Shown here one piece after another: positions 22,563-37,910 of a stretch of 42,276 bases of DNA; the first letter of the stretch is position 1, and each line of letters begins with the position of its first letter. The notes beneath the pieces are model-generated. The model was given only the letters and a program-made list of their open reading frames with translations, was not told where the DNA came from and did no database searches. The DNA is from an uncultured Croceitalea sp. (GTDB lineage Bacteria; Bacteroidota; Bacteroidia; Flavobacteriales; Flavobacteriaceae), in contig CALEYA010000041.1 of assembly GCA_937926215.1 (NCBI GenBank), positions 1 to 42,276 on the forward strand, written 5' to 3'. The position numbers and the translations under genes were made by a program.

Positions 22563-23162
22563 GTGAAATTGAAGTTCAACGTACTACCAAAAAAAGGCAC
22601 TCCACTGCGTTCCTTCGCTGTTTTTGCGATAGCGGCAGTCCTTGGTATTGGCTTTTTTTTGATGAAGGAAGGTGAAGTGGTTTCCTATTTGTCCGATGAT
22701 CCCCAGGCTTGCGTAAATTGCCATGTAATGACCCCTGTCTATAACAGTTGGATGCACAGTTCGCATCGTGAATGGGCTTCGTGCAACGGCTGTCACGTAC
22801 CACAAGATAATGTGGTAAATGCGTATTACTTTAAGGCTATGGATGGCTTGTACCACGCTTCGATTTTTACGGCAAGAGCAGAACCCGAAGTTATTTTTAT
22901 GCGCGAGGGCTCCCAAGAAGTAGTGCAAAACAATTGCATCCGCTGCCACGTGCAACAAGTCACACAAACAAAATATGATGGTTTTATAGAAAACCATGCA
23001 GCGAACAGGACCGAACGCCAATGCTGGAGCTGTCATAAAGAAATTCCCCATGGTAGGATCCATGGGATGTCTACCATAAAATATAATATTGCCCCATTAC
23101 CCACCGACCAAGAAGAAATGGTGATTCCCGCTTGGTTGGAAAAAGAAATGGCATCTAAATAA
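22563..23162 (+). CDS. nrfH: Cytochrome c nitrite reductase small subunit, tetrahaem quinol oxidase
   Basis: NrfH anchors NrfA and passes electrons from menaquinol. The 199 residues have one N-terminal membrane helix (FAVFAIAAVLGIGFFLM) and four haem sites: CVNCH (50-54), CNGCH (74-78), CIRCH (125-129) and CWSCH (154-158). DDPQACVNCHVMTPVYNSWMHSSH is characteristic of NapC/NrfH. The start is a GTG at 22563; the alternative Met34 would lose the helix, so GTG is preferred. nrfA follows 7 bp later. No clear FNR/CRP half-site pair was seen in the 150 bp upstream, although such control is common. Confidence 0.95.
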   Translation: MKLKFNVLPKKGTPLRSFAVFAIAAVLGIGFFLMKEGEVVSYLSDDPQACVNCHVMTPVYNSWMHSSHREWASCNGCHVPQDNVVNAYYFKAMDGLYHASIFTARAEPEVIFMREGSQEVVQNNCIRCHVQQVTQTKYDGFIENHAANRTERQCWSCHKEIPHGRIHGMSTIKYNIAPLPTDQEEMVIPAWLEKEMASK

Positions 23163-23169
23163 CAATCCT

Positions 23170-24669
23170 ATGAAAAACAAAATTCTGTTTATCGTAACCC
23201 TAGTAGTCGTATTTTTATTGGGCTTGCTCGCCTCAAGCATCATCAATAGAAAGAGTGAAGCAAAATACCAATATGTACCCCAAGTAGCTATTAGTGAAAA
23301 TGAACCTCGCAATGAGGAATGGGGAAAAAACTACCCAAGGGAATACCAATCATTCTTACAAACTTCCGAGACCTCCTTTGCTTCTTTTCAAGGTGGTTCC
23401 GCCATGCGCGATGTGCTTGAAGAAGACCCCAGATTGGTCGTATTGTTTGCGGGATACGGTTTCTCTAAGGATTACAATCAAGGCCGCGGTCACTTTTATG
23501 CTATAGATGATATACGGAACACGTTGCGGACCGGTGGCCCTAAAGGCCCGGGCGACGGACCTATGCCCGCTACCTGTTGGACCTGTAAAAGTCCGGATGT
23601 TCCCCGTTTAATGAACGAAAAGGGAATTGCAGAATTCTACGATGGAAAATGGGCTGACAAAGGGTCTGAAATCGTAAACCCCATCGGCTGTGCGGATTGC
23701 CATGACCCTAACAATATGAAATTACGCATTACACGCCCAGCACTTGTGGAGGCTTTTGATGCTATGGGCAAGGACATCAACAAAGCGACCCACCAAGAGA
23801 TGCGTTCTTTGGTTTGTGCCCAATGCCATGTGGAATATTACTTTGACAAGAAGAAACCTGGTGCTGAGGGTACGCCATACCTAACTTTTCCTTGGAAGAA
23901 CGGGATGAACGTGGAAGCCATGGAAGAATACTACGATGAGATGGAATTTTCAGACTGGACGCATAAAATTAGCAAGGCCCCCATGTTAAAAGCGCAACAC
24001 CCAGGCTATGAAACCTATTTGACCGGAGTGCATGCCGATCGTGGTGTTTCTTGTGCGGATTGCCATATGCCATATAAAAGCGAAGGCGGACAGAAGTTTA
24101 CCGACCACCATTTGCAATCCCCTTTGAACAATATTGCCAATTCTTGTCAAGTCTGTCACAGACAAGAGGCAGATAAATTACGTGCCAATGTATACGAACG
24201 TCAACAAAAGGCGACCGAAAACAGATTGAAGTTGGAAGACTTATTGGTCAAATCCCATATTGAAGCCGGTAAAGCATGGGAGTTGGGCGCTACGGATGAT
24301 CAGATGCAACCCATACTTACGGATATCCGCCATGCCCAATGGCGTTGGGATTATGCAGCGGCAGCACATGGTGCCTCGTTTCATTCCCCGGTAGAAACGG
24401 CACGGGTTTTGGGTGGCGGCCTGAATATCGTACAAGAGGCCAGGGTAAAATTAGCCCGCTTATTGGCAACTTTAGGTTTTAACCAAGAAGTGCCCATGCC
24501 GGATATTGCATCCAAGGAAAAAGCACAAGAATTCATAGGTTTGGATATGGAAAAACTTATTAAGGAAAAAGAAGAGTTTAAAACCAATTTACTGCCCAAA
24601 TGGTTAGAAGAGGCCAAAGCCCGTGAGGATAAAATGGATTCCAAAGAAGTGAGCATGACCAACAAGTAG
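23170..24669 (+). CDS. nrfA: Pentahaem cytochrome c nitrite reductase
   Basis: NrfA reduces nitrite to ammonium with six electrons. The 499 residues match the family. The active-site haem motif is CWTCK (136-140), with Lys in place of His, and four CxxCH follow: CADCH (174-178), CAQCH (216-220), CADCH (295-299) and CQVCH (326-330). CAQCHVEYYF and the later H-containing segment around AAAHGASFHSP are family landmarks. The N-terminus (ILFIVTLVVVFLLGLLASS) may stay as an anchor or be cleaved. nrfH is 7 bp upstream; ccsBA follows by 48 bp. The set supports respiratory nitrite ammonification, or nitrite and NO detoxification, at low oxygen. Confidence 0.97.
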   Translation: MKNKILFIVTLVVVFLLGLLASSIINRKSEAKYQYVPQVAISENEPRNEEWGKNYPREYQSFLQTSETSFASFQGGSAMRDVLEEDPRLVVLFAGYGFSKDYNQGRGHFYAIDDIRNTLRTGGPKGPGDGPMPATCWTCKSPDVPRLMNEKGIAEFYDGKWADKGSEIVNPIGCADCHDPNNMKLRITRPALVEAFDAMGKDINKATHQEMRSLVCAQCHVEYYFDKKKPGAEGTPYLTFPWKNGMNVEAMEEYYDEMEFSDWTHKISKAPMLKAQHPGYETYLTGVHADRGVSCADCHMPYKSEGGQKFTDHHLQSPLNNIANSCQVCHRQEADKLRANVYERQQKATENRLKLEDLLVKSHIEAGKAWELGATDDQMQPILTDIRHAQWRWDYAAAAHGASFHSPVETARVLGGGLNIVQEARVKLARLLATLGFNQEVPMPDIASKEKAQEFIGLDMEKLIKEKEEFKTNLLPKWLEEAKAREDKMDSKEVSMTNK

Positions 24670-24717
24670 CCGATTTTAAACCCTTTTCTTTAAAGGCTTT
24701 TAAGCCGAACACTTTTC

Positions 24718-27700
24718 ATGAAACTAATCTACCGTATTTTTTCTTCGCCTGTATTGGCACTTGTTTTATTGTTGGTTTTTGCCATAGCCATGGGCACCGC
24801 TACCTTTATAGAAAACGATTTTGGGACCGCTACGGCATGGATAAAAGTGTATGACTCCAGCTGGTTTGAGTTGGTCATGTTGGGACTGGGCCTCTGTTTT
24901 GCGGCCAACATTTATAAATACAAACTTTGGAGAAAGGAAAAATGGGCCATCCTTCTTTTTCATATTGCTTTTATAGTAATCCTTTTAGGGGCCGGTATTA
25001 CCCGCTATACTTCCTATGGAGGTATTATGCGTATCAGGGAGGGCGCATCTTCTAATACCATTATTTCGGATAAAAATTATCTGCAAGTCCATATAACCAA
25101 TGGAAACCAGGTCAAGCATTTGGAAAGGGAGCTGTACTTTTCCCCTTTGACTAACAATGATTTTACGATCCAAACGGATTTGGAGGCTACCCCCATTACC
25201 ATTTCACATAAGGAATTTGTTGCCGATGCCATTCCAGAAATTATCAACGACCCAGAAAAAGGGATGCCTATATTGCAATTGGTGGTTACCTCTGGAAATG
25301 GTAGGGAAACCCTATTTCTAAAGAAAGGGGAGATTGAAGAAATAGGAAGCCATAAACATAAAATAGGCTTTGAGGCAGCGGGAGAAGATGTTATCAATCT
25401 TTTTGAAAAAGAAGGTGAGTTCCAGCTATTGGCGCCACATCAGCTCGACTTTTTTATCATGGCTGATCAAACTGCGGGTATTATCAAAGGTGACACCTTG
25501 CAACCCATGACCTTGAGGACTTTATACCGCTCCGGTGATTTATCTTTTGTGCCGCTATCTTTTCATGAATCTGGGCGTATTGATATCGTAAGCTCGGCAG
25601 AAAAACCAAAAGATAATGATAAGGTCAAAGATGATGCCTTGGTATTGAAGGTTCGGGTAAATGATGCCACGGAACAGGTGAACTTACTCTATCGTGACGG
25701 TTTTTTACCCACCACGCATGAGGTTACGGTAAATGGCACCAGCATTAGTTTATCGTATGGTGCCAAGCCCATTGAAACCCCTTTTTCCGTACAGTTGAAC
25801 GACTTTCAGTTGGAACGGTATCCGGGTTCTGAGAGTCCGTCCGCTTATGCCAGTGAGGTGACTGTTTTGGATGAAGATACTAAAATGCCTTTCCGCATTT
25901 TTATGAACAATGTTTTGGATTATGGCGGATTTCGTTTTTATCAAGCCAGCTACGACACCGACGAAAAAGGCACGGTTTTATCCGTTAACCATGATGTCTT
26001 GGGTACCAATGTTACCTATGCGGGGTATTTTTTAATGATGATAGGCATGTTCTTCACCCTTTTTGGCAAGGGTTCCCATTTTAGCACCATCAATAAAAAA
26101 TTGAAAAAATTGAAAGCGAAAAAAGCGGTTACTGTGCTATTACTCATCGGGGCGATGAATGCAGCTCTTCATGCGCAACAGGCAAAGGATGCTATTTCGA
26201 TACCCGATTTAGTAAGACAACAAGTCATTGAGGAGCAGCACGCGGCACTCTTTGGACGTTTGATGGTTCAAGATTTGGATGGGAGGATAAAACCCGTCAA
26301 TACCTTGGCTTCCGAATTTTTGCGTAAAGTATCCCGTAAACCCTATTTTAAATACAAGGGTGATAATGATGAGGTTCAAATGGATGCCAATCAGGTATTC
26401 TTGGCCATGCATGTATCTCCGGGAGCTTGGCAACAGATTCCCATCATAAAAATAGACGCGGAGAAGGGCGGCAGTTTTTTTGATGCGCTAAAGATTACGG
26501 ATGAGGGGTTGATCGCTTTTGATGATTTAATAAACCCCGGTGGGGATTATGTGTTTTCAAAAGTAGCGGAAGAAGCCAATGCAAAGAAACCTGCGGAGCA
26601 TAATGAATTTGATAAGGAAGTGCTCAAGGTAGACGAACGATTTAATATTTTGTTCAATATTTTTTCAGGCAATTATTTAAAGATTTATCCCAATAGTCTT
26701 GACAAGAAGGATACGTGGTATAGTTACACGCATCATTTTAAGGATTTCCCGGCAGAGGACGCCCGTTTTGTACAAACCATAACCACATCTTATTTTAATG
26801 ATATAGCGGCCAAAAAATGGGTGGCGGCAACAGAGAAGTTATCGTATATCAATACCTACCAAAGTACCTTGGGAAAGGCCATTATTCCTAACACTCAACG
26901 AGTAGAGGCAGAGTTGTGGTACAATGAAATGAACCTTAACTTTTGGTTGTTTCAAGTGTTTTTCACTTTGGGATTTGTATTGCTTGCGTTGGCCTTAGCT
27001 AAAATATTTGTGCAAAAACGTTTTATGGACGCACTATGGAACGTGCTGGTTATTCTTTCCCTAATCAGCTTTCTAATTTTTACAGGAAACATAGTGCTAC
27101 GCTGGTATGTAGCACAACATGCTCCTTGGAGTAACGGTTACGAAATGTTGGTCTTTGTAGCATGGGTTTTAATGCTCTGCGGATTAATGACTTTTAGAAA
27201 ATCAGACTTTTCTCTGCCTTTAGCAACCCTGTTTACAGGCTCTCTGTTGTTCGTTAGTTACTTGGACTGGTTAAGTCCGGAGATTACCAACTTAATGCCT
27301 GTATTGAAATCCTTTTGGCTTAAGGTACATGTTGCTACCATTGTTAGCAGTTATGCTCCCTTGGCCTTGTCTGCGGTTTTGGGTTTTATGGTTTTGGTTT
27401 TGATGATTATAGAAACCAAAAAATCCAAGGAAGCTATAGCGATTCGCATTAAAGAGCTCACTTATATTAACGAAATATCGATGACGATTGGCTTGTTTGT
27501 TTTGGCTGTGGGTACTTTCCTTGGTGGTGTTTGGGCCAACGAATCTTGGGGCCGCTACTGGGCTTGGGACCCAAAGGAGACTTGGGCCTTGATTTCCATA
27601 ATTGTTTATGCTGTCGTATTGCACCTTCGTTTTGTTCCTGCCTTAAAAGGTCGATATACCTTAAATGTGGCCAGCGTTTTTGCTTTTGGTTCTATTATTA

Positions 27701-27861
27701 TGACCTCTTTCGGTGTGAACTACTATTTATCGGGATTACACAGCTACGCAGCAGGAGACCCTGTACCTGTACCTAAGTTTATTTATGTTTTGATTGCCGT
27801 GGTAGTATTGGTATCAATAACGGCTTATCTAAAAAGAAAACACTTTTTTGTTCGCAAGTAG
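24718..27861 (+). CDS. ccsBA: CcsBA (ResB-ResC fusion) system II cytochrome c synthase
   Basis: 1047 residues. The first 460 are ResB/CcsB-like, with membrane segments near the start (SSPVLALVLLLVFAIAMGTATFIENDFG) and a large periplasmic domain. A second periplasmic region of about 250 residues follows (around 490-740). The rest is CcsA/ResC-like with many membrane segments and the haem-handling motif WGRYWAWDPKETW (WAWDPKETW at 948-956). Such fused proteins carry haem across the membrane and attach it to CxxCH. NrfA needs attachment at CWTCK as well, and no separate lyase is present, so this enzyme may do both. The stop directly abuts the stop of the convergent gene. Confidence 0.95.
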   Translation: MKLIYRIFSSPVLALVLLLVFAIAMGTATFIENDFGTATAWIKVYDSSWFELVMLGLGLCFAANIYKYKLWRKEKWAILLFHIAFIVILLGAGITRYTSYGGIMRIREGASSNTIISDKNYLQVHITNGNQVKHLERELYFSPLTNNDFTIQTDLEATPITISHKEFVADAIPEIINDPEKGMPILQLVVTSGNGRETLFLKKGEIEEIGSHKHKIGFEAAGEDVINLFEKEGEFQLLAPHQLDFFIMADQTAGIIKGDTLQPMTLRTLYRSGDLSFVPLSFHESGRIDIVSSAEKPKDNDKVKDDALVLKVRVNDATEQVNLLYRDGFLPTTHEVTVNGTSISLSYGAKPIETPFSVQLNDFQLERYPGSESPSAYASEVTVLDEDTKMPFRIFMNNVLDYGGFRFYQASYDTDEKGTVLSVNHDVLGTNVTYAGYFLMMIGMFFTLFGKGSHFSTINKKLKKLKAKKAVTVLLLIGAMNAALHAQQAKDAISIPDLVRQQVIEEQHAALFGRLMVQDLDGRIKPVNTLASEFLRKVSRKPYFKYKGDNDEVQMDANQVFLAMHVSPGAWQQIPIIKIDAEKGGSFFDALKITDEGLIAFDDLINPGGDYVFSKVAEEANAKKPAEHNEFDKEVLKVDERFNILFNIFSGNYLKIYPNSLDKKDTWYSYTHHFKDFPAEDARFVQTITTSYFNDIAAKKWVAATEKLSYINTYQSTLGKAIIPNTQRVEAELWYNEMNLNFWLFQVFFTLGFVLLALALAKIFVQKRFMDALWNVLVILSLISFLIFTGNIVLRWYVAQHAPWSNGYEMLVFVAWVLMLCGLMTFRKSDFSLPLATLFTGSLLFVSYLDWLSPEITNLMPVLKSFWLKVHVATIVSSYAPLALSAVLGFMVLVLMIIETKKSKEAIAIRIKELTYINEISMTIGLFVLAVGTFLGGVWANESWGRYWAWDPKETWALISIIVYAVVLHLRFVPALKGRYTLNVASVFAFGSIIMTSFGVNYYLSGLHSYAAGDPVPVPKFIYVLIAVVVLVSITAYLKRKHFFVRK

Positions 27862-29433
27862 CTAAAACCTGTATCCAAGTTGTGCTGTTAATTGCTGCCT
27901 GCCTCCAATACCCAATTGTACCATAAAATCCCAATGTTTACCAAAGCCTTTATTGACTCCAAATAGTGCGTTCCATTGTGTGGGAATAAAATTCACATTA
28001 TAGCGTAAGATATTCCCATCTTCCAATTCAAAAAAGCCTGATACATCTGAATCATAAAATTGACCCATACTCCCTGCAAACACATTGAGATTGTTGGGAA
28101 ATCGATAGCCAGCTAAAAGCACATAGGCATTTGCGGTTGTTGTAGTATTGGCCTCCTCCACACTTGCCCTGATAAATTGATAGGTGCCACTTGCAAAGAC
28201 ATCTCCTATACCACCACCAAGGGTAACGGCACCGCCTATTATATTTGCACTTACATCTATATTTAGGGGCAATGATTGTGGGATATCACCAGGACTTAAC
28301 CCTAAAAAAGGCGCCAAGTCCACGATACCTTGCCTAAATTCCGGATCTAGATTGAAATTCCCCGCTACGGTATTATCCGCTCTTCCTATAATCCCCGACA
28401 CATTTAAAAAAGGGAAAATCCAAACATCGGGTCGCACAAAATAGGTATTTGTGGTTTGCACAATATTGGAGCTTTCCAAATCGAACAGCGAGCTTAAATC
28501 CGCTAATTCTCCATCTCCAAAACCAACACTGATTCCTTGAAAATCCAAATCGTCATCTTGGGAATGCACTATAACGTTTATGCCAACCGGTCTTGGTAAT
28601 CCAAACCCAAGTTTTGTAGCGGGCTTTCCAAAAATTGGCAGCCCCCAACCCAAGGTCACGTTAACGGTATCTACAACTTTCTCAGTATCAAAAAAAGCGG
28701 AAGAGCTTGGTTTTCCCGCCCAAGAAACCCTGGTTCCATTGGGAGTTGTGTAATCTGCTGTTTTATAAGTAAATTCAAAATTTTGACCTTTTACGGTATA
28801 ACTCTCTTTAATTTCGGAAATTATATATCCTTTTAGTTCCGTGACCCTTTGATAATATACAATACGTTTAAAATTTTCCTTGCCTTCGGAAAGTTTTTTT
28901 AAACTACTTAATTCAATTTTTTCTAAAATGCCATTCGAAATAAAAATTTGACCATCATACTTTTTAATATCCTTTAATTCAGGTTCGATATTGTTTTTAG
29001 AGTACCGGTAACCAAAAACAATTTCTTGCGAATCGGACCTTACTAATTTTAAAGAGGATTCATCGTATAAATTACTTCTTGAAAGTCGACTAAGTTTATG
29101 ACTTTTTTCAATCGCTTTTTTCAACGACTTTAAATCTGATTTTGAGAATTGTCCTTGTTCTATCAAAAAACGAATATCCTTACCATCTTTATAAGATGGA
29201 TCATAAACGATTTGGGTCTTATAAGTTCCATTTCCTTGCACATTCCCTATTTCGATTTCTAAATTTTGCACAAAACTACCTTCTTGTAAAAGTACACTTG
29301 CGGCCGCATCGAGAATTTTAGGTGAAATTCCATATTCAGCAAGATAGGAGCTATTTAACGGGCTTTCTTCTTGAGCACTTGCGTTCCAAAAAAGTATGAG
29401 GCCCAGGCTTACAAAAAAGAGATGTTTTTTCAT
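27862..29433 (-). CDS. Large outer-membrane barrel-like protein, last gene of the efflux operon
   Basis: 523 residues with a signal peptide (HLFFVSLGLILFWNASAQ). The first 200 residues are mixed and charged (VQNLEIEIGNVQGNGTYKTQ, LKKAIEKSHKLSR); the rest is strand-rich with Gly-Asp turns (LGWGLPIFGKPATKLGFGLP, ISVGFGDGELADL, ASGTYQFIRASV) and ends QLTAQLGYRF with terminal Phe, a barrel-assembly signal. I do not recognise the family. It starts 18 bp after the K+ channel gene stop, so it is probably co-transcribed. Its 3' end touches ccsBA with no spacer. Confidence 0.6.
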   Translation of the reverse strand: MKKHLFFVSLGLILFWNASAQEESPLNSSYLAEYGISPKILDAAASVLLQEGSFVQNLEIEIGNVQGNGTYKTQIVYDPSYKDGKDIRFLIEQGQFSKSDLKSLKKAIEKSHKLSRLSRSNLYDESSLKLVRSDSQEIVFGYRYSKNNIEPELKDIKKYDGQIFISNGILEKIELSSLKKLSEGKENFKRIVYYQRVTELKGYIISEIKESYTVKGQNFEFTYKTADYTTPNGTRVSWAGKPSSSAFFDTEKVVDTVNVTLGWGLPIFGKPATKLGFGLPRPVGINVIVHSQDDDLDFQGISVGFGDGELADLSSLFDLESSNIVQTTNTYFVRPDVWIFPFLNVSGIIGRADNTVAGNFNLDPEFRQGIVDLAPFLGLSPGDIPQSLPLNIDVSANIIGGAVTLGGGIGDVFASGTYQFIRASVEEANTTTTANAYVLLAGYRFPNNLNVFAGSMGQFYDSDVSGFFELEDGNILRYNVNFIPTQWNALFGVNKGFGKHWDFMVQLGIGGRQQLTAQLGYRF

Positions 29434-29451: not shown

Positions 29452-30135
29452 TTAGTTTTTCAAGTTGGTTTTGTTTTGATTGATAAATTTCCCCACAACT
29501 ACTGCGGTCACAATAACAAGATAGAACTGTCCTACAAGTCCGATTAAAATACTTGCTTTTTGTGCCAAAGGGGTAAGCGGTGTCATATCGCCGTAACCTA
29601 TGGTCAACAAGGTGATAAAACTAAAATACATCAGTTGCTCCGTTAGGGTGTTGGGATGTGATTCTTGCATGTTCAAAAGGCCACCCCCAAAGGAGTCTGG
29701 GTTGGTTAATTCAATGGCCATGTAAACGTAAAACCCTATTAAGCCGAGACATATAAACCCACTTGCCATACCTAAGATTACTTTTTTATCCACCGTTGCG
29801 GATTGCCAAACCTGCTTGATGATCTCATAGGTAACCGCCAAATAAAAAGCAAAGTAGATCCCAAATTGTATATAACTGGTAAAGAGCGTCATTTCACCAT
29901 GGGCTTGGGCAAGACCAAAAATAATACTGCTGGCAATTAACAAAACCAAAAAGAACCAAAACAGTTCCTTACGCTTTGAAATTAAAAGGATACCCGCAAT
30001 TAGGTTAAGCAAGAATAAAATGGGCGCGATACTTTTATCAAAGATTTCCCCGGGAATGAACAGCGACCCAAACAGTACTGCCAATTGGGTGATAAAGAAA
30101 AAATCAAATCGTATAGTATAAAGTCTATCTTTCAT
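29452..30135 (-). CDS. Two-pore-helix (Ion_trans_2) potassium channel family protein
   Basis: 227 residues with about six hydrophobic segments. The K+ selectivity filter is explicit: YFSFITLLTIGYGDMTPLTP, with TIGYGD, placed between the last two membrane helices. The C-terminus is short (FINQNKTNLKN), so no RCK domain or voltage-sensor arginines are present. It would conduct K+ through the inner membrane. It is wedged between two outer-membrane barrel genes (gaps of 4 and 18 bp) at the tail of an RND efflux operon, an unusual place. The membrane topology with four helices before the pore resembles other bacterial potassium channel family proteins. Confidence 0.85.
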   Translation of the reverse strand: MKDRLYTIRFDFFFITQLAVLFGSLFIPGEIFDKSIAPILFLLNLIAGILLISKRKELFWFFLVLLIASSIIFGLAQAHGEMTLFTSYIQFGIYFAFYLAVTYEIIKQVWQSATVDKKVILGMASGFICLGLIGFYVYMAIELTNPDSFGGGLLNMQESHPNTLTEQLMYFSFITLLTIGYGDMTPLTPLAQKASILIGLVGQFYLVIVTAVVVGKFINQNKTNLKN

Positions 30136-30139
30136 TTTG

Positions 30140-30853
30140 CTAGAATGTGTATCCTATTTTAATTCCATATCGAAAAGCGATGAGCCTTAATTCCGTCCTT
30201 TGATTTCCGTTAATTTCAAAATCCGGATCTATAAGGTCAACGATCCCAAGTCGCTTTAAGGCATCCGTTAGATCATCGTAAAAAGCTTGGGGCACCGGAG
30301 TTACTTCATTTAGCTCCAAAGTATTAAAACTAAGCCCGGGGCCTGCAATAATGAAATCGATAAAGAATCGTTTGTTCAAGTTTAGTTTATAGCCAACCTC
30401 CAATCCGGGATTGAAAGTTTGCAAGCTAGCATCGATAAGGATTTCGCTTGCTTGATTATCCACGGCAGTATAGATACCGGCGATATCCCCTTTCCGTTTT
30501 TGGAATCGGAAATATGCTCCTGCATAAAAACCCATAAGCCCACTATGGGATTTTTGAAAATACCAGCGGAATTCAGGAATTAATTTGATGCCTTTAAAAT
30601 CAAACTCGTTTGTCACGAATCTATCGAAATCAATAGAAGAAATATCAAGATTGCCTGATGAGAATTTATAACCCGTTGACAAGCTTACTGAAAAACGATG
30701 TCCTACTTCACGTTCATATTGAATCTGATACGTGCCCGCCCATGGTAATAAGGGATCAATACTTATATGGTTTTTATTTGTTCCTTCTTGCGCAATACCA
30801 AAAGCGGTATGCACTAATAGCAACAAAATCAACATGTGATTTGGTGTTCTCAT
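30140..30853 (-). CDS. DUF3575-like outer-membrane protein
   Basis: 237 residues with a signal peptide (NHMLILLLLVHTAFGIAQ). The pattern HISIDPLLPWAGTYQIQYER near the start, LIPEFRWYFQKS, GFYAGAYFRFQKR, LEVGYKLNLNKRFFIDFIIAGPG and a last strand IKIGYTF is that of the small DUF3575 barrels of Bacteroidota. It lies 18 bp after the RND pump gene and 4 bp before the K+ channel gene. The function is unknown; membership in the efflux operon suggests an envelope role. Confidence 0.7.
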   Translation of the reverse strand: MRTPNHMLILLLLVHTAFGIAQEGTNKNHISIDPLLPWAGTYQIQYEREVGHRFSVSLSTGYKFSSGNLDISSIDFDRFVTNEFDFKGIKLIPEFRWYFQKSHSGLMGFYAGAYFRFQKRKGDIAGIYTAVDNQASEILIDASLQTFNPGLEVGYKLNLNKRFFIDFIIAGPGLSFNTLELNEVTPVPQAFYDDLTDALKRLGIVDLIDPDFEINGNQRTELRLIAFRYGIKIGYTF

Positions 30854-30871: not shown

Positions 30872-33800
30872 TTATTCCAAAAGTGCCTTATTAAACTGAT
30901 ACCCTTTATAATCCACTTTATACAATACGCTATAAAAAGCGGGTATAAACAATAAGGTAATTACTGTTCCAAATAAGAGTCCGACCATAATGGTCACGGC
31001 CATGGGCTCCCAGGTTTCCCCTCCGCCCAAATACAAGGGTATTAAGCCCAATACTGTAGTAAAGGTGGCCAATAATATGGGTCGAAAACGCTGCAAGCAG
31101 GCCGCGATAATCGCATCCTGTGGTTTTCGTTTGATTTCGTTCTCCTCAATCTCTATCCGATCCACCAGTACTATTGCGTTGTTGATTACGATTCCCGCAA
31201 GGGAAATAACACCCAAAAAGGCCATAAACCCAAAAGGAACATTAAAAATCAATAATCCCAACACCATACCGATAACCCCTAGGGGAATGGTACAAACGAT
31301 CATAGCCATCTTACGGAAAGAGTTAAACTGGATGATCAATAGCATGACAATGATAAAAGCGGATAAGGGCAGGTAGCTGGCTACCGCACCCATATTTTCT
31401 GCCGTAGTCTCTGCATCACCACCCAAGTTATAACTGTAACCGGCGCCCCAGCTCGCTGCCTGTTCCTCTAACCAAGGGGTAATTTGGGCCGTAATTGCGG
31501 AAGCATTGCCATCTGCCGTCAATTCGCTTGACACGTTGATGGTACGTGTTAAATTCAATCGCTTTACACGGGTATATTGCCATTGCGGAACAATGGAGGC
31601 CACCTGGAGTAGGGGCACACTTTTTCCGGAACTTTGGGCATAAATATTCAGGGTTTCCAAAGAAGCCAGAGACTGCTGTTTGCTTTGGTCGCTTAACATA
31701 ACAATGGGAATGGACTTGTCGTCCTCCCTGTATTCACCGGTGCTAAAACCATCCAATACGGTCTGTAAGGATGTTGCTATGTCTTGATTGGTTACCCCTG
31801 CCAGTTGCGCTTTATTCTGGTCGATATCAATGATGAATTTCTTTCCTTTTGGTCCCCAATCATCCTTGATGTTTTTGGTGCCGGCAATACTGAACAACTT
31901 GGTTTTTATGGTTTGCGATATATCCGCTAATTTACTGGGGTCATCCCCAGAAACTTTTATTTCAATAGGTGTTCCACCGCCCCCGGAACCTAAAAGACCT
32001 ACTTTGATGTCCGCATTGGGAAAAGACGAAAAACTGAAAGAATCCAATTTTCTGACCATCTCATTGTTTACCAAGAAATTGGTAGTATTTATAAGGATAT
32101 GTGCATAATTGGAATTCGCTTCGTCAGGATTGTACCCCAAATCATAGGCCGAAGGACCTTCGCCGATATAAGCGGACCAATCCACAATACCATCGGCATT
32201 GTTCTCATTGACCTTAAGCTCTCTGGTCATAAATGCCTCAATTGCAGCAACCATCTCTTGGGTACGCTCAATTTTAGTCCCCTCTGGAAGGTTGATGTCC
32301 GCAGTGATCATATTACGATCACTGTCCGGAAAGAATACGAAAGCCAATAATCCAAACCCTAAAATGGATAAAAAGAACATACCCACAATAGCAAAAAGAA
32401 CGGTTCGCTTCCAGTTAAGGGCAACCAATATCAAATCTTTGTATTTGGATTTTAAGCCATTGATCAAACGGTCAAGAAAACTTACTTTCCCTTCTTCTTG
32501 TTTTTTCACTTTTAGGAAGAACACACAGAATAGGGTAATAATACTTAAGGCGATGATCCATGAAGATAGCAAAGCGATGGTAATGACAACAAAAATGGGT
32601 CCCATAATATCGCCCATAACGGATTCTGCCATATAAAACGATAAGAAGGCCGCCGAAGTGGTCAAGGTAGAGATCAGTAAGGGCGTAAAAAGTTCGGAGC
32701 AAGAATCTATGGCCGCTTTTTTGACATCCACGCCATTTTCCATTTTTACCATAACGGACTCCGCCACCACGATACCATTATCCACCATCATGCCCAAAGC
32801 CATGATCAAGGCTGCTAAAGTGATTTGATTCAATCCAACATCGATCAAGCCCATTACAAATAGGGTGGTAATCGTAACAATGGGGATCAAACTGGCAATG
32901 ACCAAACCTGTTCTCAATCCTAGGAAAAACAACATTACAATGAGCACTATGGTTATGGATTGCAGAAGGTTACCCACAAAATCACTGATTTTTGTATCGA
33001 TATAACTGTCTATGGAGGCCAATCTGTTCGCTTCTAGTCCTACCGGAAGTTTTTCGCGCCACTCATTAAGAACAACATCGAGTTCTTCCCCTAATTTAAT
33101 GATATTGGCTCCCTTTTTTAGGGAAACATGGAGCGATAGCGCATCTTTACCGTTGATCCGTACAATTTGGGTGGGTGGGTTGATATATCCTTTTCGAACG
33201 TTGGTAATATCCTTTAAAGGAACCACCTGCCCGCCGTCCCCAACGGGAATCAGCATTTCTTCGATATCGGAAACGTCATTAAAATTCCCTGTAGGTTCTA
33301 GGATAATACGCTCGTCCCCTACATTGATTTGCCCCCCGGAGCTTAAAATATTGGTATTCCCTATCAAGCCTTGCAAGCGGTTGGAGGTTAACCCAAAGCT
33401 CTTCAATTTCGTGTTGTCAAATTCTACGAATACACGCTCTTCTTGATCTCCGTTGATTTCCACTTTTGCGGCATCGGGCAATTTGATCAGATCATCGCGC
33501 ATATCATCGGCAAAGGTTTTCATTTCGGTAAAAGAATAGCCATCGCTGGTGAGGCCTACCGCAATTCCAAAAACCTCACCAATGCCATCGTCCTTAAGTT
33601 GGGGTTGTACACCGGTAGGTAGTCCTTGAATGCTACTTAATTTTCTTCGAAGACGATCCCAAACCGCTTGTAACTCTTCCGGCTTTGTTTGCATCACCAA
33701 TTCTACTTGAACAATAGAAAGGCCCGTTCTTGAAGTACTCGTAACCTTCTTTAGTTCGGGCAATTCTTGGGCTACTTTTTCAATTTTATCCGTAACCAAT

Positions 33801-33982
33801 TCCTCAACACGTTCTGGACTGGCACCCGGAAACGATGAAACTATGGAAGCTACCCGAATTGTGTACGGAGGCATGCTATCACGGGAAAGTCCTTGATAAC
33901 CAACCAAACCCATAAGCATAACCACGGCAAGGATACTTAAAACAACACGGTTGTTATTAATTGAAAACTGGGTAAGATTCAT
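30872..33982 (-). CDS. RND-family efflux pump, inner-membrane permease
   Basis: 1036 residues, the usual HAE1/AcrB size, with the duplicated layout of a membrane helix, a large periplasmic loop and six helices, twice. Landmarks: SRDSMPPYTIRVASIVSSFPGASPERVEE, VDNGIVVAESV at the proton-relay helix (Asp401, with Asn402 where AcrB has a second Asp), and SLAGIVINNAIVLVDRIE in the second half (Asn where AcrB has the relay Lys, judged by motif alignment only). It exports substrates across the periplasm using the proton gradient. The residue differences place it outside the AcrB-like drug pumps; the substrate is unknown. Adaptor and TolC genes precede it with 22- and 16-bp gaps. Confidence 0.93.
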   Translation of the reverse strand: MNLTQFSINNNRVVLSILAVVMLMGLVGYQGLSRDSMPPYTIRVASIVSSFPGASPERVEELVTDKIEKVAQELPELKKVTSTSRTGLSIVQVELVMQTKPEELQAVWDRLRRKLSSIQGLPTGVQPQLKDDGIGEVFGIAVGLTSDGYSFTEMKTFADDMRDDLIKLPDAAKVEINGDQEERVFVEFDNTKLKSFGLTSNRLQGLIGNTNILSSGGQINVGDERIILEPTGNFNDVSDIEEMLIPVGDGGQVVPLKDITNVRKGYINPPTQIVRINGKDALSLHVSLKKGANIIKLGEELDVVLNEWREKLPVGLEANRLASIDSYIDTKISDFVGNLLQSITIVLIVMLFFLGLRTGLVIASLIPIVTITTLFVMGLIDVGLNQITLAALIMALGMMVDNGIVVAESVMVKMENGVDVKKAAIDSCSELFTPLLISTLTTSAAFLSFYMAESVMGDIMGPIFVVITIALLSSWIIALSIITLFCVFFLKVKKQEEGKVSFLDRLINGLKSKYKDLILVALNWKRTVLFAIVGMFFLSILGFGLLAFVFFPDSDRNMITADINLPEGTKIERTQEMVAAIEAFMTRELKVNENNADGIVDWSAYIGEGPSAYDLGYNPDEANSNYAHILINTTNFLVNNEMVRKLDSFSFSSFPNADIKVGLLGSGGGGTPIEIKVSGDDPSKLADISQTIKTKLFSIAGTKNIKDDWGPKGKKFIIDIDQNKAQLAGVTNQDIATSLQTVLDGFSTGEYREDDKSIPIVMLSDQSKQQSLASLETLNIYAQSSGKSVPLLQVASIVPQWQYTRVKRLNLTRTINVSSELTADGNASAITAQITPWLEEQAASWGAGYSYNLGGDAETTAENMGAVASYLPLSAFIIVMLLIIQFNSFRKMAMIVCTIPLGVIGMVLGLLIFNVPFGFMAFLGVISLAGIVINNAIVLVDRIEIEENEIKRKPQDAIIAACLQRFRPILLATFTTVLGLIPLYLGGGETWEPMAVTIMVGLLFGTVITLLFIPAFYSVLYKVDYKGYQFNKALLE

Positions 33983-34004: not shown

Positions 34005-35099
34005 TTACTGCAGTCGTACTTTCTGTCCATCCAGTAGGGTTTGTAAACCGGCCGTAGCAATCTTCTCACCACCATTGAGCCCGCTTTTGATCTTAAATCC
34101 GCTGCTTGTTAGCTCGCCCACCTCAATAGGTTGTTTTTTGGCCGTTCCCGTCTTATTGTCTTCAGATTCTATGATGAATACAAAATTGCCGTTTCCATCC
34201 TCACCTACTGCTTTTAGGGGAACGGTAAGGGTATTACGCCCTTTATCTTCTTGACCGGATTCAAAATTGAACGTTACCGTGGCCGCCATGCCTGGTTTAA
34301 TTTCCGTTGACGGTGCTACGATTCCTATGGCTGTAATATAGGTGGACGAATTTTCGTCAATGGCAGGGGAAACTTCAATGACGTTCCCTTTGAAGGAACC
34401 TTGCTCGATCGCGGAAAATTCCAAATCGGTTGGCATACCCACATTTACCCTATTGACCAAGGATTCTGGTAATCCAACCTCTATTTTCAAATCATCACCC
34501 GCATTAAGAATGGCAAACACATGCCCAGCCGCTACACGTTCATTAACACCGCCATCGGTACTGGCTATTACGCCATCTTTAGGTGCTTTAATAATACCAT
34601 AACTTAGTTGGGTGGCCTGTATGCTTCTGTTTCTTTTGGCAGATTCAAATTGATCAAGGGCACTTTGATACGAATTCTTTGCCTGTTCATAATCGCTCAA
34701 AGACTGACTGCCACTTTCGTAGAGTGATTTCACACGATCCAAGGCGGATTTAGCCGTGTTCATCGCTGAACTTGCACTATTAAGGGCGGATACGGATTGC
34801 TCATAGGCCAAATTAGCCTCAACATTGTCCAATCTAGCAATGACATCGCCTTTCTTTACTTTTGCACCTTTCCAGTGATTTACTTTGGTGATAATACCAC
34901 CACTTCTAAAACTTAGATCGATCGCATCGCTTGCTTTGGCCGTTCCGCTAAAGGAACGTATTTTTTGATCGTCCGAAGTACCCACCACCTGAAAACTAAC
35001 CGGCCTAAGTACTTCTTCCTGTTTTTTTTCCTCTTCCTTGCACGAAGTAAATGCCAAAAATGTTGACAGTATCAACAGGCTATAATGAAAATATTTCAT
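34005..35099 (-). CDS. RND efflux periplasmic adaptor, lipoprotein
   Basis: 364 residues. The signal ends in the lipobox FTSC, and the mature end is CKEEEKKQEE. Barrel-sandwich halves flank a coiled-coil hairpin: VKKGDVIARLDNVEANLAYEQS, ALNSASSAMNTAKSALDRVKSLYES...YEQAKNSYQSALDQFESAKRNR, and GIIKAPKDGVIAS. Beta-barrel and membrane-proximal parts follow (VNVGMPTDLEFSAIEQGSFKG, IKPGMAATVTFNF). It links the RND pump to TolC. The Cys-Lys-Glu-Glu-Glu end resembles the flavobacterial signal that sends lipoproteins to the cell surface, which would conflict with an adaptor's site (see findings). Confidence 0.93.
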   Translation of the reverse strand: MKYFHYSLLILSTFLAFTSCKEEEKKQEEVLRPVSFQVVGTSDDQKIRSFSGTAKASDAIDLSFRSGGIITKVNHWKGAKVKKGDVIARLDNVEANLAYEQSVSALNSASSAMNTAKSALDRVKSLYESGSQSLSDYEQAKNSYQSALDQFESAKRNRSIQATQLSYGIIKAPKDGVIASTDGGVNERVAAGHVFAILNAGDDLKIEVGLPESLVNRVNVGMPTDLEFSAIEQGSFKGNVIEVSPAIDENSSTYITAIGIVAPSTEIKPGMAATVTFNFESGQEDKGRNTLTVPLKAVGEDGNGNFVFIIESEDNKTGTAKKQPIEVGELTSSGFKIKSGLNGGEKIATAGLQTLLDGQKVRLQ

Positions 35100-35115: not shown

Positions 35116-37461
35116 TTATTGATTTCTACTTAAGATAAAAGTCCTTGCTCTCTGAATAAAATCTTGATTGTTTTCGGCTGAATTCATCAAGAAGAAATAA
35201 CCAATGGCCCGCTCCAATTGCATAGAAGCCAATAGGTAATTATAATTTGCCGTTGCACTGGCCAATTGCGATTGTAAATAATTGGTTTGCGCATCGATCA
35301 ATTGGATTAGTGGCACTGCGCCCTCACTGTACGCAACTTGGGTCAAATCCAAACTTTCTTTTGCGGCTTCTTCAGCAATCTTGGATATTTGGATGTTCGC
35401 TATTTCATTGGTTAAATCTAAGACAAGGGCATTGACATTGGTTTCGATATTCAAATCGATATTGCTCTTTTGGATATTCAATTGATCCTCTTGTATTTTT
35501 GCCGTTTGCCTGCCTATATTGTTCAAATTTTGCCTAAAAATGGGTAGCGAAAGATTGAGCCCCAAATTATAGGTGCCGTCTGGAGCAACCGGTATTCCAG
35601 GTGTTAAGGTAGAACCTGCACCAGATTGGCTTAATGCTAGATTGTAATTTCCCTGAAGCGCAAGTGTAGGTACAAACCTGCCGGATGCATTTAGGCGATA
35701 GGTACGTTGTACCGCTTCCAGGTTATAGCCGATATTTTTCAATTCCGGTGCGTTCTTCTCCGCTTCCTGTATTAAAAATCCAATGAGGTTGGGCCGTAGT
35801 TTTGGGTTGTCCAGAATTTCAAGGAAATCTTGATACCTATAATTCGAAAACAATCCCTCTGAGATAACTGCATCCTCTATATCTATCTCCATGGAAATTG
35901 GATTGTTCATCAATTGATTGATCGTATAGTACGCTTGGTTCAATTGATTGCCCGCTTCGATCAGGGTCTGCATGTTTTGGGCCATTTGGCTACGAAATCG
36001 CAGTACGTCTGATTTTCCAGAAGCCCCAGCTTCAAAGTTTTGTTCGGAAATTTGCAGGTTTTCTTTGGTAACCTCAAGGTTTTGGGCTTGGATCTGGGCG
36101 TTGGTCTTTAAGATCAACGCATTGAAATAGGCTACGGAACCATTGAGTATGGCATCCAATTCTGCTGCATTATAGCTCTCTTGTTGTGCTTTTTGCAAAT
36201 TGTCTTGAATGGTAATACCTGCCGCCGCACCCTCAGAATAAATGAGTTGCTGTAGACTTACATTGCCAGAAGTGGAAAACTCCGGATTAGCACCCCCTGA
36301 TATTTCTGCAACACGGGGATCTAAGTATGCTGCGGTAGCGGAAGCCGATACATCCGGCAAAAAATTGCTTTTGGCCGTTTTTACGTCCTGTGTACTCAAA
36401 TCAACATTTTTTCTTTCTACTTCGAGCCCTAGGTTTCTGCCCACGACGCCTTTCATGATATCCAAGAGCGAGTAGGCATTTTCAGAAATGAAATTGCTCT
36501 CGCCACCCACAATGTCAACAGTGCCCAACATACTATATCGCAACGGAAACTTGATTTCCTTAGCGGTATTGAAGTTAAGGGAAAGCCTATTTTTATAGTC
36601 CAACAACATGGGAAGCTCCGATGGGTTGGTTCCGTTTATAATGGATTCTACGTCCAAGGCTATGCGTCTAAAAAAACGATTGATATTGGATTCTGGCTGA
36701 TTGGTTGCCAAAATACCTTTCTCCACATCTTTCTTTCTATTGGCGGAAAATGAAGGCAATTGTTTTTTATTAATGGCAGTAATCAGGGTTCTTAAAGCGG
36801 TCTCCGATAATGCGAACCCCCCAGCCAGGTAAACGGCATCTACATCGTCTGGAAAGTTGGGGACGTCCCCATTTTCTGGAAGTGTAATTAAGGTATAGGT
36901 AGCATCCTTATCCGCAAAATAGGCGTCAAACAGTTCCTTTATGGGCAGGGCCGCGGGAAGGTAATCGTCCACTAGAATTCCTACTTTCTTAAACTGATAA
37001 ATTGAATTGAAAGCATCCAAGTCCGTGGAATAGGATAGGGGCGCAATGATATAGGCAATATTATTGATTCCCGAAGTCTTTTGATCCTTGGGTAAATCGA
37101 TAAAATCACTGTTCACCGATCCAAAAACAACCACAGGTTTCTTATAGGTCTTTTGCTGGTACAACGCAATGTTATTGATGGTCCCAAACGCGAGTATGAT
37201 ATCAACATTACTAGATTCCAAATCAAGGTAGTTGGCTTTTGCCTTCTCTAAATCAAAACCGTTTTCAATAGGGTCTTTAAATACCACATTGGCATCTTGT
37301 CCTACCACGGCCCTAATTTCTGTTTGCAGTTTTTCAAGCAGCGGTATGTTTTCAACGGATGCTTCATCCGCCAATATTCCAATGGTCACGTTTTTAGAGC
37401 TTTGCGCAATTGAAAATGTGGTCGTTAGGAGAAAAAGAAGGACAATTAATTGCTTTGCCAT
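35116..37461 (-). CDS. TolC-family outer-membrane channel fused to a periplasmic binding protein-like domain
   Basis: The track begins at 37500, but Met14 (37461) opens a clear signal peptide, MAKQLIVLLFLLTTTFSIAQ; this leaves a 10-bp gap instead of overlapping the upstream gene. About 290 residues then match the ABC_sub_bind fold: VTIGILADEASVENIPLLEKLQ, VDIILAFGTINNIALYQQ, KKPVVVFGSVNSDFIDL, KKVGILVDDYLPAALPI, DAVYLAGGFALSETALRTLI, KGILATNQPESNINRFFRRIALD. The remaining 450 residues form the two-repeat TolC/OEP fold (ETNVNALVLDLTNEIANIQISKI, VPLIQLIDAQTNYLQSQLASATANYNYLLA). A normal TolC has about 430-490 residues; at 781 this is a true two-domain protein. The extra domain sits at the periplasmic end. 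Confidence 0.9.
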   Translation of the reverse strand: MAKQLIVLLFLLTTTFSIAQSSKNVTIGILADEASVENIPLLEKLQTEIRAVVGQDANVVFKDPIENGFDLEKAKANYLDLESSNVDIILAFGTINNIALYQQKTYKKPVVVFGSVNSDFIDLPKDQKTSGINNIAYIIAPLSYSTDLDAFNSIYQFKKVGILVDDYLPAALPIKELFDAYFADKDATYTLITLPENGDVPNFPDDVDAVYLAGGFALSETALRTLITAINKKQLPSFSANRKKDVEKGILATNQPESNINRFFRRIALDVESIINGTNPSELPMLLDYKNRLSLNFNTAKEIKFPLRYSMLGTVDIVGGESNFISENAYSLLDIMKGVVGRNLGLEVERKNVDLSTQDVKTAKSNFLPDVSASATAAYLDPRVAEISGGANPEFSTSGNVSLQQLIYSEGAAAGITIQDNLQKAQQESYNAAELDAILNGSVAYFNALILKTNAQIQAQNLEVTKENLQISEQNFEAGASGKSDVLRFRSQMAQNMQTLIEAGNQLNQAYYTINQLMNNPISMEIDIEDAVISEGLFSNYRYQDFLEILDNPKLRPNLIGFLIQEAEKNAPELKNIGYNLEAVQRTYRLNASGRFVPTLALQGNYNLALSQSGAGSTLTPGIPVAPDGTYNLGLNLSLPIFRQNLNNIGRQTAKIQEDQLNIQKSNIDLNIETNVNALVLDLTNEIANIQISKIAEEAAKESLDLTQVAYSEGAVPLIQLIDAQTNYLQSQLASATANYNYLLASMQLERAIGYFFLMNSAENNQDFIQRARTFILSRNQ

Positions 37462-37471
37462 AAGTTCTAAA

Positions 37472-37876
37472 TTAGTTCCAGTCCTTTCTTTTGTATACAT
37501 CTTCTAAAAGCTTGTCATAGGTTTCTAAATAGTAGCGGTATTGCTTTTCATCCAAAATGGCCTTGACCTCGGTGTTTTGTTTTGTTATCAGGGCTTCGAA
37601 TTTGGAACGGATCTCTTCAGGAGTGTATCCTTTTTCTTTTTTCTCCAGTGCCCTCATTTTATAGGTGTGGTACAACACAATGTTATAGAACTCTTCCCGC
37701 TTATCGTCTTTTAAACCCATTACGGTTGCCCTATCGTAAAACCACATTTGCAGACTGTCCCGCTCTACATTGCTAAATAGTTCCGTTTGTGTGGTTTTTT
37801 GGGTTTGGGCAAAGGCCGAATAAGAGAAAAACAAGAAGAAAAAGAGGATTTGAAAGTACAGGGTAGGCTTTTTCAT
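37472..37876 (-). CDS. Secreted Spy/CpxP-like helical protein, first gene of the efflux operon
   Basis: The track starts at 37888; Met5 (37876, MKKPTLYFQILFFFLFFSYSAFAQ) gives the natural signal peptide. The mature part is helical: ERDSLQMWFYDRATVMGL, KREEFYNIVLYHTYKMRALEKKE, PEEIRSKFEALITKQNTEVKAIL and EKQYRYYLETYDKLLEDVYK. It aligns gaplessly with the protein at 6574-6972. Proteins of this type are periplasmic chaperones or metal-stress sensors. Leading an RND/TolC operon, it may protect assembly of the pump or sense envelope stress. The stop is 10 bp from the TolC-fusion start, so coupling is likely. Confidence 0.65.
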   Translation of the reverse strand: MKKPTLYFQILFFFLFFSYSAFAQTQKTTQTELFSNVERDSLQMWFYDRATVMGLKDDKREEFYNIVLYHTYKMRALEKKEKGYTPEEIRSKFEALITKQNTEVKAILDEKQYRYYLETYDKLLEDVYKRKDWN

Positions 37877-37910
37877 AGTTTGATGCAAATAAGTGATACT
37901 TTGGTTTTTA

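Follow-up and report, generated by a model that had tools for sequence, protein, structure and literature searches.

The window analysed here, a stretch of 42,276 nucleotides from an uncultured Croceitalea sp. of the Flavobacteriaceae, encodes on its minus strand a TolC channel that carries a complete substrate-binding protein (SBP) domain at its N-terminus. The protein is encoded in one operon with a periplasmic adaptor and an RND permease, and both the SBP-TolC architecture and the operon are conserved among Bacteroidota. In a dedicated RND efflux pump, the fused protein would form the channel across the outer membrane. The best reading of the additional domain is that its lobes are directed at the channel, whose engagement they would regulate or stabilise (probability roughly 0.45).

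A binding-protein fold at the N-terminus of a TolC channel

The fusion protein (781 aa, 35116..37461, minus strand) consists of a signal peptide (residues ~1–20), an SBP domain (~21–318), a linker (~319–331) and an OMF/TolC moiety (~332–781). The ATG at 37461 is taken as the right start because it lies 10 nt beyond the stop of the upstream gene, into which the frame would run if the alternative longer ATG at 37500 were used. The C-terminal 450 residues (35116..36471, minus strand) match the OEP family PF02321 in two stretches (E 1.6e-44 in the Pfam scan), and the TolC half of the AF2 model matches TolC (1ek9 and others) with an E of ~1e-17 in Foldseek, so that the two OEP repeats form the TolC fold. 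A preliminary description of the locus had proposed a signal peptide, an extra domain of ~290 residues and then a full TolC; this layout holds, with an N-domain of ~300 aa in front of a full TolC/OEP moiety. Compared with the TolC/OprM OMFs of RND pumps, the protein has the same complete pair of OEP repeats, the same fold by Foldseek and an adaptor and an RND permease encoded alongside, but differs from them in an N-terminal extension of ~300 residues that has an SBP fold. In addition, OprM and CusC are lipidated, whereas none of the 81 fusion sequences has a lipobox cysteine after the signal peptide.

The N-domain (residues ~21–318/325, 36487..37401, minus strand) belongs to the ABC_sub_bind/TrpX class, an assignment that comes from profile searches of the PDB, hhalign and Foldseek. 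With the window sequence alone, the Pfam scan of the N-terminal part returned neither PF04392 nor any other family, a phmmer search of the PDB with residues 1–330 came back empty, and a PF04392 search of the source genome found nothing. Among the relatives, five of 29 family members scanned singly matched PF04392 (best 7.9e-6) and the fusion of a Sulfuricurvum plasmid scored above the Pfam cut-off (38.6 vs 25.9 bits). A profile of the 29 members reached 3lkv in the PDB at 0.011, and its alignment with canonical ABC_sub_bind proteins of Bacteroidota scored 4.2e-5. After the addition of distant members, the wider profile matched 3lkv (5.9e-13), 6hni (1.4e-8) and 3lft (1.3e-7), the next PDB match being only 0.033, and hhalign aligned it with the canonical ABC_sub_bind proteins at 97.8% and 9.6e-13. 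The fusion was modelled with AF2 as a monomer from an alignment of 57 sequences (pLDDT 82, pTM 0.67; pLDDT 34 from the single sequence), and in Foldseek the N-domain of this model matched 6hnj, 6hni, 3lft and 3lkv with a probability of 1.00, TM(target) of 0.60–0.71 and E of 1.4e-9 to 1.3e-8, which corresponds to the two-lobed fold of class I SBPs. Because the family profile, hhalign, the Sulfuricurvum member and the AF2/Foldseek comparison agree, the ABC_sub_bind fold first proposed for this domain is right, and the predicted model contains the two lobes that had been set as its test. The PF04392 match expected for residues 20–330 was found through the relatives and the profiles and not with the window sequence by itself. 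That the likeness to binding proteins is due to chance and the domain is an unrelated exported one, for which the lack of a PF04392 or PDB match to the window sequence alone could be quoted, is refuted almost beyond doubt by the convergence of profile, profile-profile, intermediate-sequence and fold comparisons on the same three structures.

Those structures are TrpX (3LFT, Trp), VC_1101 (3LKV, Phe) and CD0873 (6HNI, Tyr). The N-domain resembles them in fold, in a collinear alignment over the full length and in the strong profile match, but it lacks their common motifs, is not a lipoprotein and is fused to a channel. Nor does an importer permease with its ATPase stand beside the fusion in the Bacteroidota operons; the operon of the window has an adaptor, an RND permease and a K+ channel instead. 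As far as searched, the SBP-TolC fusion is unreported: no description of ABC_sub_bind combined with TolC (PF04392 + PF02321) was found in the open-access papers that the search covered. Automatic annotation goes no further than 'TolC family protein' or 'ABC transporter substrate binding protein', the latter in the case of SULKU_RS13415.

Operon and distribution of the fusion

On the minus strand, the cluster begins with a small exported helical protein (138 aa, a listed ORF, 37472..37888, no Pfam family), which is followed by the fusion and, 16 nt past it, by the periplasmic adaptor of the RND_mfp type (364 aa, 34005..35099; TIGR01730, E 3.3e-64, above cut-off). Next come the RND permease (1036 aa, 30872..33982; PF00873, E 2.3e-157), an accessory outer-membrane beta-barrel-like protein (DUF3575, 237 aa, 30140..30853; PF12099, E 8.3e-6), a K+-channel-like protein with a TIGYGD filter, which is the last conserved gene of the operon (227 aa, 29452..30135; PF07885, E 1.6e-10), and an exported protein that is probably a beta-barrel (523 aa, 27862..29433; no significant Pfam match). 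All seven genes lie on the minus strand and are separated by gaps of 4–22 nt. A single operon encodes the adaptor, the RND permease and the OMF of a tripartite pump. The less constant members of the cluster vary in their distribution: relatives of the small exported protein occur at 33 of the examined loci, mostly just upstream of the fusion and sometimes in two copies, the DUF3575 gene occurs at seven of the loci, and relatives of the 523-aa protein are near the operon in few cases only.

The tie between the fusion and this pump was examined in 201 genomes of the family Flavobacteriaceae. Relatives of the N-domain are present in 33 of them, two being weak, and the TolC moiety, searched at E ≤ 1e-40, in 31, where all intact frames measure 778–832 aa. 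The sole short frame, in genome G015, is situated at the end of a contig and has its N-domain on another contig. No unfused orthologue of the channel was found among the 201 genomes. Thirty genomes have the RND orthologue (identity of at least 65%), and all 30 carry the fusion; with both pump genes downstream of it, the earlier proposal of a dedicated adaptor and RND pump is borne out, as is the co-occurrence that it had asked to be counted. At the 80 named loci, the fusion frame is intact in 79 and broken in L073, the RND gene is present at 79, the contig of L049 stopping short, and adaptor and RND permease follow in this order wherever flanking sequence is available. In the wider phylum, matches were obtained in 14 of 396 genomes. 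All of them are fusions except L124, where two canonical ABC_sub_bind domains stand in tandem without a TolC domain, and the adaptor and the RND gene come next in nearly all of these fusions, L157 being an exception. At one further locus (L160, G123:C86), what is left of the N-domain is interrupted by stop codons; the search of this genome did not find the pump orthologue, and the locus probably represents an operon copy that has decayed.

Outside Bacteroidota, matches are carried by one Calditrichia MAG and one Gammaproteobacteria MAG, whose placement rests on MAG binning, and by Sulfuricurvum kujiense, whose plasmid pSULKU01 encodes the fusion at L163:7710–10121 (SULKU_RS13415). The plasmid protein has the same architecture, but its neighbours are a HlyD adaptor, an RbbA-like ABC-2 exporter and TetR regulators instead of an RND pump. 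The fused channel thus appears with two pump classes, since it accompanies an RND permease in Bacteroidota and an ABC exporter in Sulfuricurvum. Plasmids of Cetobacterium somerae encode two TolC-family proteins (L164:6479–8659 and L165:6362–8533) with ~270 extra N-terminal residues beside an adaptor and an RND permease. Because the N-domain profile gave no significant match to these two channels, they are counted as probable and not as proven members, and Cetobacterium probably carries a shorter form of the fusion.

In a tree of TolC moieties, the fused channels, including that of Sulfuricurvum, group together (94/99) and are separated from the seven unfused channels included. This grouping suggests that the fusion probably arose once, long ago; a single origin is favoured and not proven, as the sample of unfused channels is small. 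The dN/dS of the N-domain is ~0.04, like that of TolC, in the two pairs that were computable with dS saturated, and the domain diverges together with the RND permease (r 0.93). Strong purifying selection, as far as two pairs with saturated dS can reveal it, and the co-divergence with RND argue that the N-domain matters to the system.

The RND permease has its own peculiarities. In AcrB, the TM4 motif is VDD and the TM10 motif is AKN, while in the window and in the RND genes of loci L031–L110 they read VDN and INN, and the stretch AGIVINNAIVL is present in 77 of 79 RND genes. The lysine of the usual proton relay and one of the aspartates therefore seem to be missing from the permease, so its coupling may differ.

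Position of the domain and its possible role

OMFs are viewed as passive ducts that adaptors open. The N-terminus of OMFs originates in the equatorial domain, at mid-height on the outer face of the helical barrel (PMC8277102). The AF2 monomer model has the N-domain finish at about residue 318, and the channel helix H1 begins at residue 332, ~15–20 residues later. An equatorial N-terminus together with a short linker implies that the three SBP domains of a trimer would lie outside the tunnel at mid-height. By homology and from the monomer model, they should hang at the equatorial belt below the outer membrane, near the site that YbjP, a lipoprotein, occupies at the equatorial region of E. coli TolC (PMC13082787). 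The preliminary description had placed the domain at the periplasmic entrance and had suggested that it could capture a ligand there, gate the channel or sense load. This location does not agree with the course of the OMF N-terminus, which departs from the outer side of the equatorial belt and makes direct capture of cargo into the channel unlikely. Gating or the sensing of load may be possible.

The reading directed at the channel can be spelled out as follows. Each trimer would carry three two-lobed domains, attached by short linkers to the tunnel exterior at the level of the equatorial belt. The lobes would open and close on a ligand other than an aromatic amino acid or on a partner in the envelope, and this movement would stabilise or modulate the engagement between channel and adaptor, while the RND protein would still load cargo from the periplasm and the inner membrane. 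The SBP would act on the channel and not as a donor of cargo, nor on one type of pump, because the fusion accompanies RND pumps in Bacteroidota and probably in Cetobacterium, and an ABC exporter with HlyD in Sulfuricurvum. YbjP provides a precedent for a partner at equatorial TolC and counts in favour of this reading; its dispensability for laboratory efflux counts against it (PMC13082787). In both cases TolC bears an additional periplasmic domain at its equatorial region, a position that for the fusion is deduced, and the likeness is one of position. YbjP is a separate lipoprotein, whereas the fusion domain is covalent and fixed.

In class I SBPs the cleft is lined by the loops that stand at the C-terminal ends of the strands, and in the N-domain conservation is no higher in these loops than elsewhere (p 0.97 phylum-wide, p 0.91–0.98 in the near set). 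The single cleft-side positions D32 and G93 are strongly conserved, even in distant members, and others vary by lineage. Tyr, Phe and Trp are the ligands of the solved relatives, which bind them via a common mechanism (PMC6816091). The motifs common to these three aromatic amino-acid binders (HPxLD, TPxAQ, DP, SD, ExN and DN), which judging from conservation and not from coordinates would be ligand contacts, are absent from the fusion members in the joint alignment. Because these motifs are absent and the cleft loops do not stand out in conservation, ligand binding by the N-domain is unproven. Either a change or a loss of the ligand would agree with the data: something may be sensed or bound at the outer end of the pump, or the lobes may bind no small ligand. 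The more specific proposal that closure of the lobes on a periplasmic ligand switches channel opening or adaptor engagement, which would make the exit duct the sensor of the pump, is for now rather doubtful.

Next, at little distance from the channel-directed role, comes a purely structural one, which, though tentative, has to be taken seriously. The SBP fold would then have lost ligand binding and would only brace the TolC trimer, its position in the membrane or its contact with peptidoglycan, as has been proposed for YbjP. The absence of the canonical binder motifs, the ordinary conservation of the cleft loops and the occupation of the TolC equatorial region by YbjP (PMC13082787) would all fit such a module. 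It explains less well why the whole two-lobed domain has been kept over great distances and across phyla, and why the conservation of D32 and G93 at the cleft side extends to distant members. Direct capture of cargo, by which the SBP would take the exported substrate in the periplasm and feed the channel or the pump in the manner of an SBP-ABC importer, is improbable. The fold is that of an amino-acid binding protein and the fusion is strictly tied to one RND clade in Flavobacteriaceae, two points in favour of capture. However, the OMF N-terminus lies outside a sealed tunnel at mid-height, far from the RND entry near the inner membrane (PMC8277102), the same domain stands alongside an ABC exporter, and an importer-type permease is lacking. 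With regard to the channel-directed role, a clade of ducts that bear an SBP, present in several lineages with RND pumps and in one case with an ABC exporter, offers a direct way to ask whether a ligand regulates the outer end of efflux.

The K+-channel-like gene and the neighbouring cluster

The K+-channel-like gene, which the preliminary description had not mentioned, is a steady companion of the pump. A gene of this kind with six TM segments lies downstream of the RND gene, on the same strand and within 4 kb, at 72 of 79 loci (gap below 60 nt in 47), and 69 of the 72 have the filter T[IV]GYG[DE]. Of the 31 genomes of the family sample that carry the fusion, 28 have it, against 12 of the 170 that lack the fusion, as raw counts in which kinship is ignored. 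Its relatives in three pump-less genomes have no pump gene nearby; the K+ channel is consequently regarded as a partner and not, by definition, as a part of the pump. So steady a partner suggests a further link between the pump and ion balance. Beyond the operon, the plus strand of the window carries a convergent nitrite-ammonification cluster (22563–27861; a NapC/NirT-type cytochrome, cytochrome c552 and a ResB/cytochrome c assembly protein), which stops one base short of the last gene of the operon.
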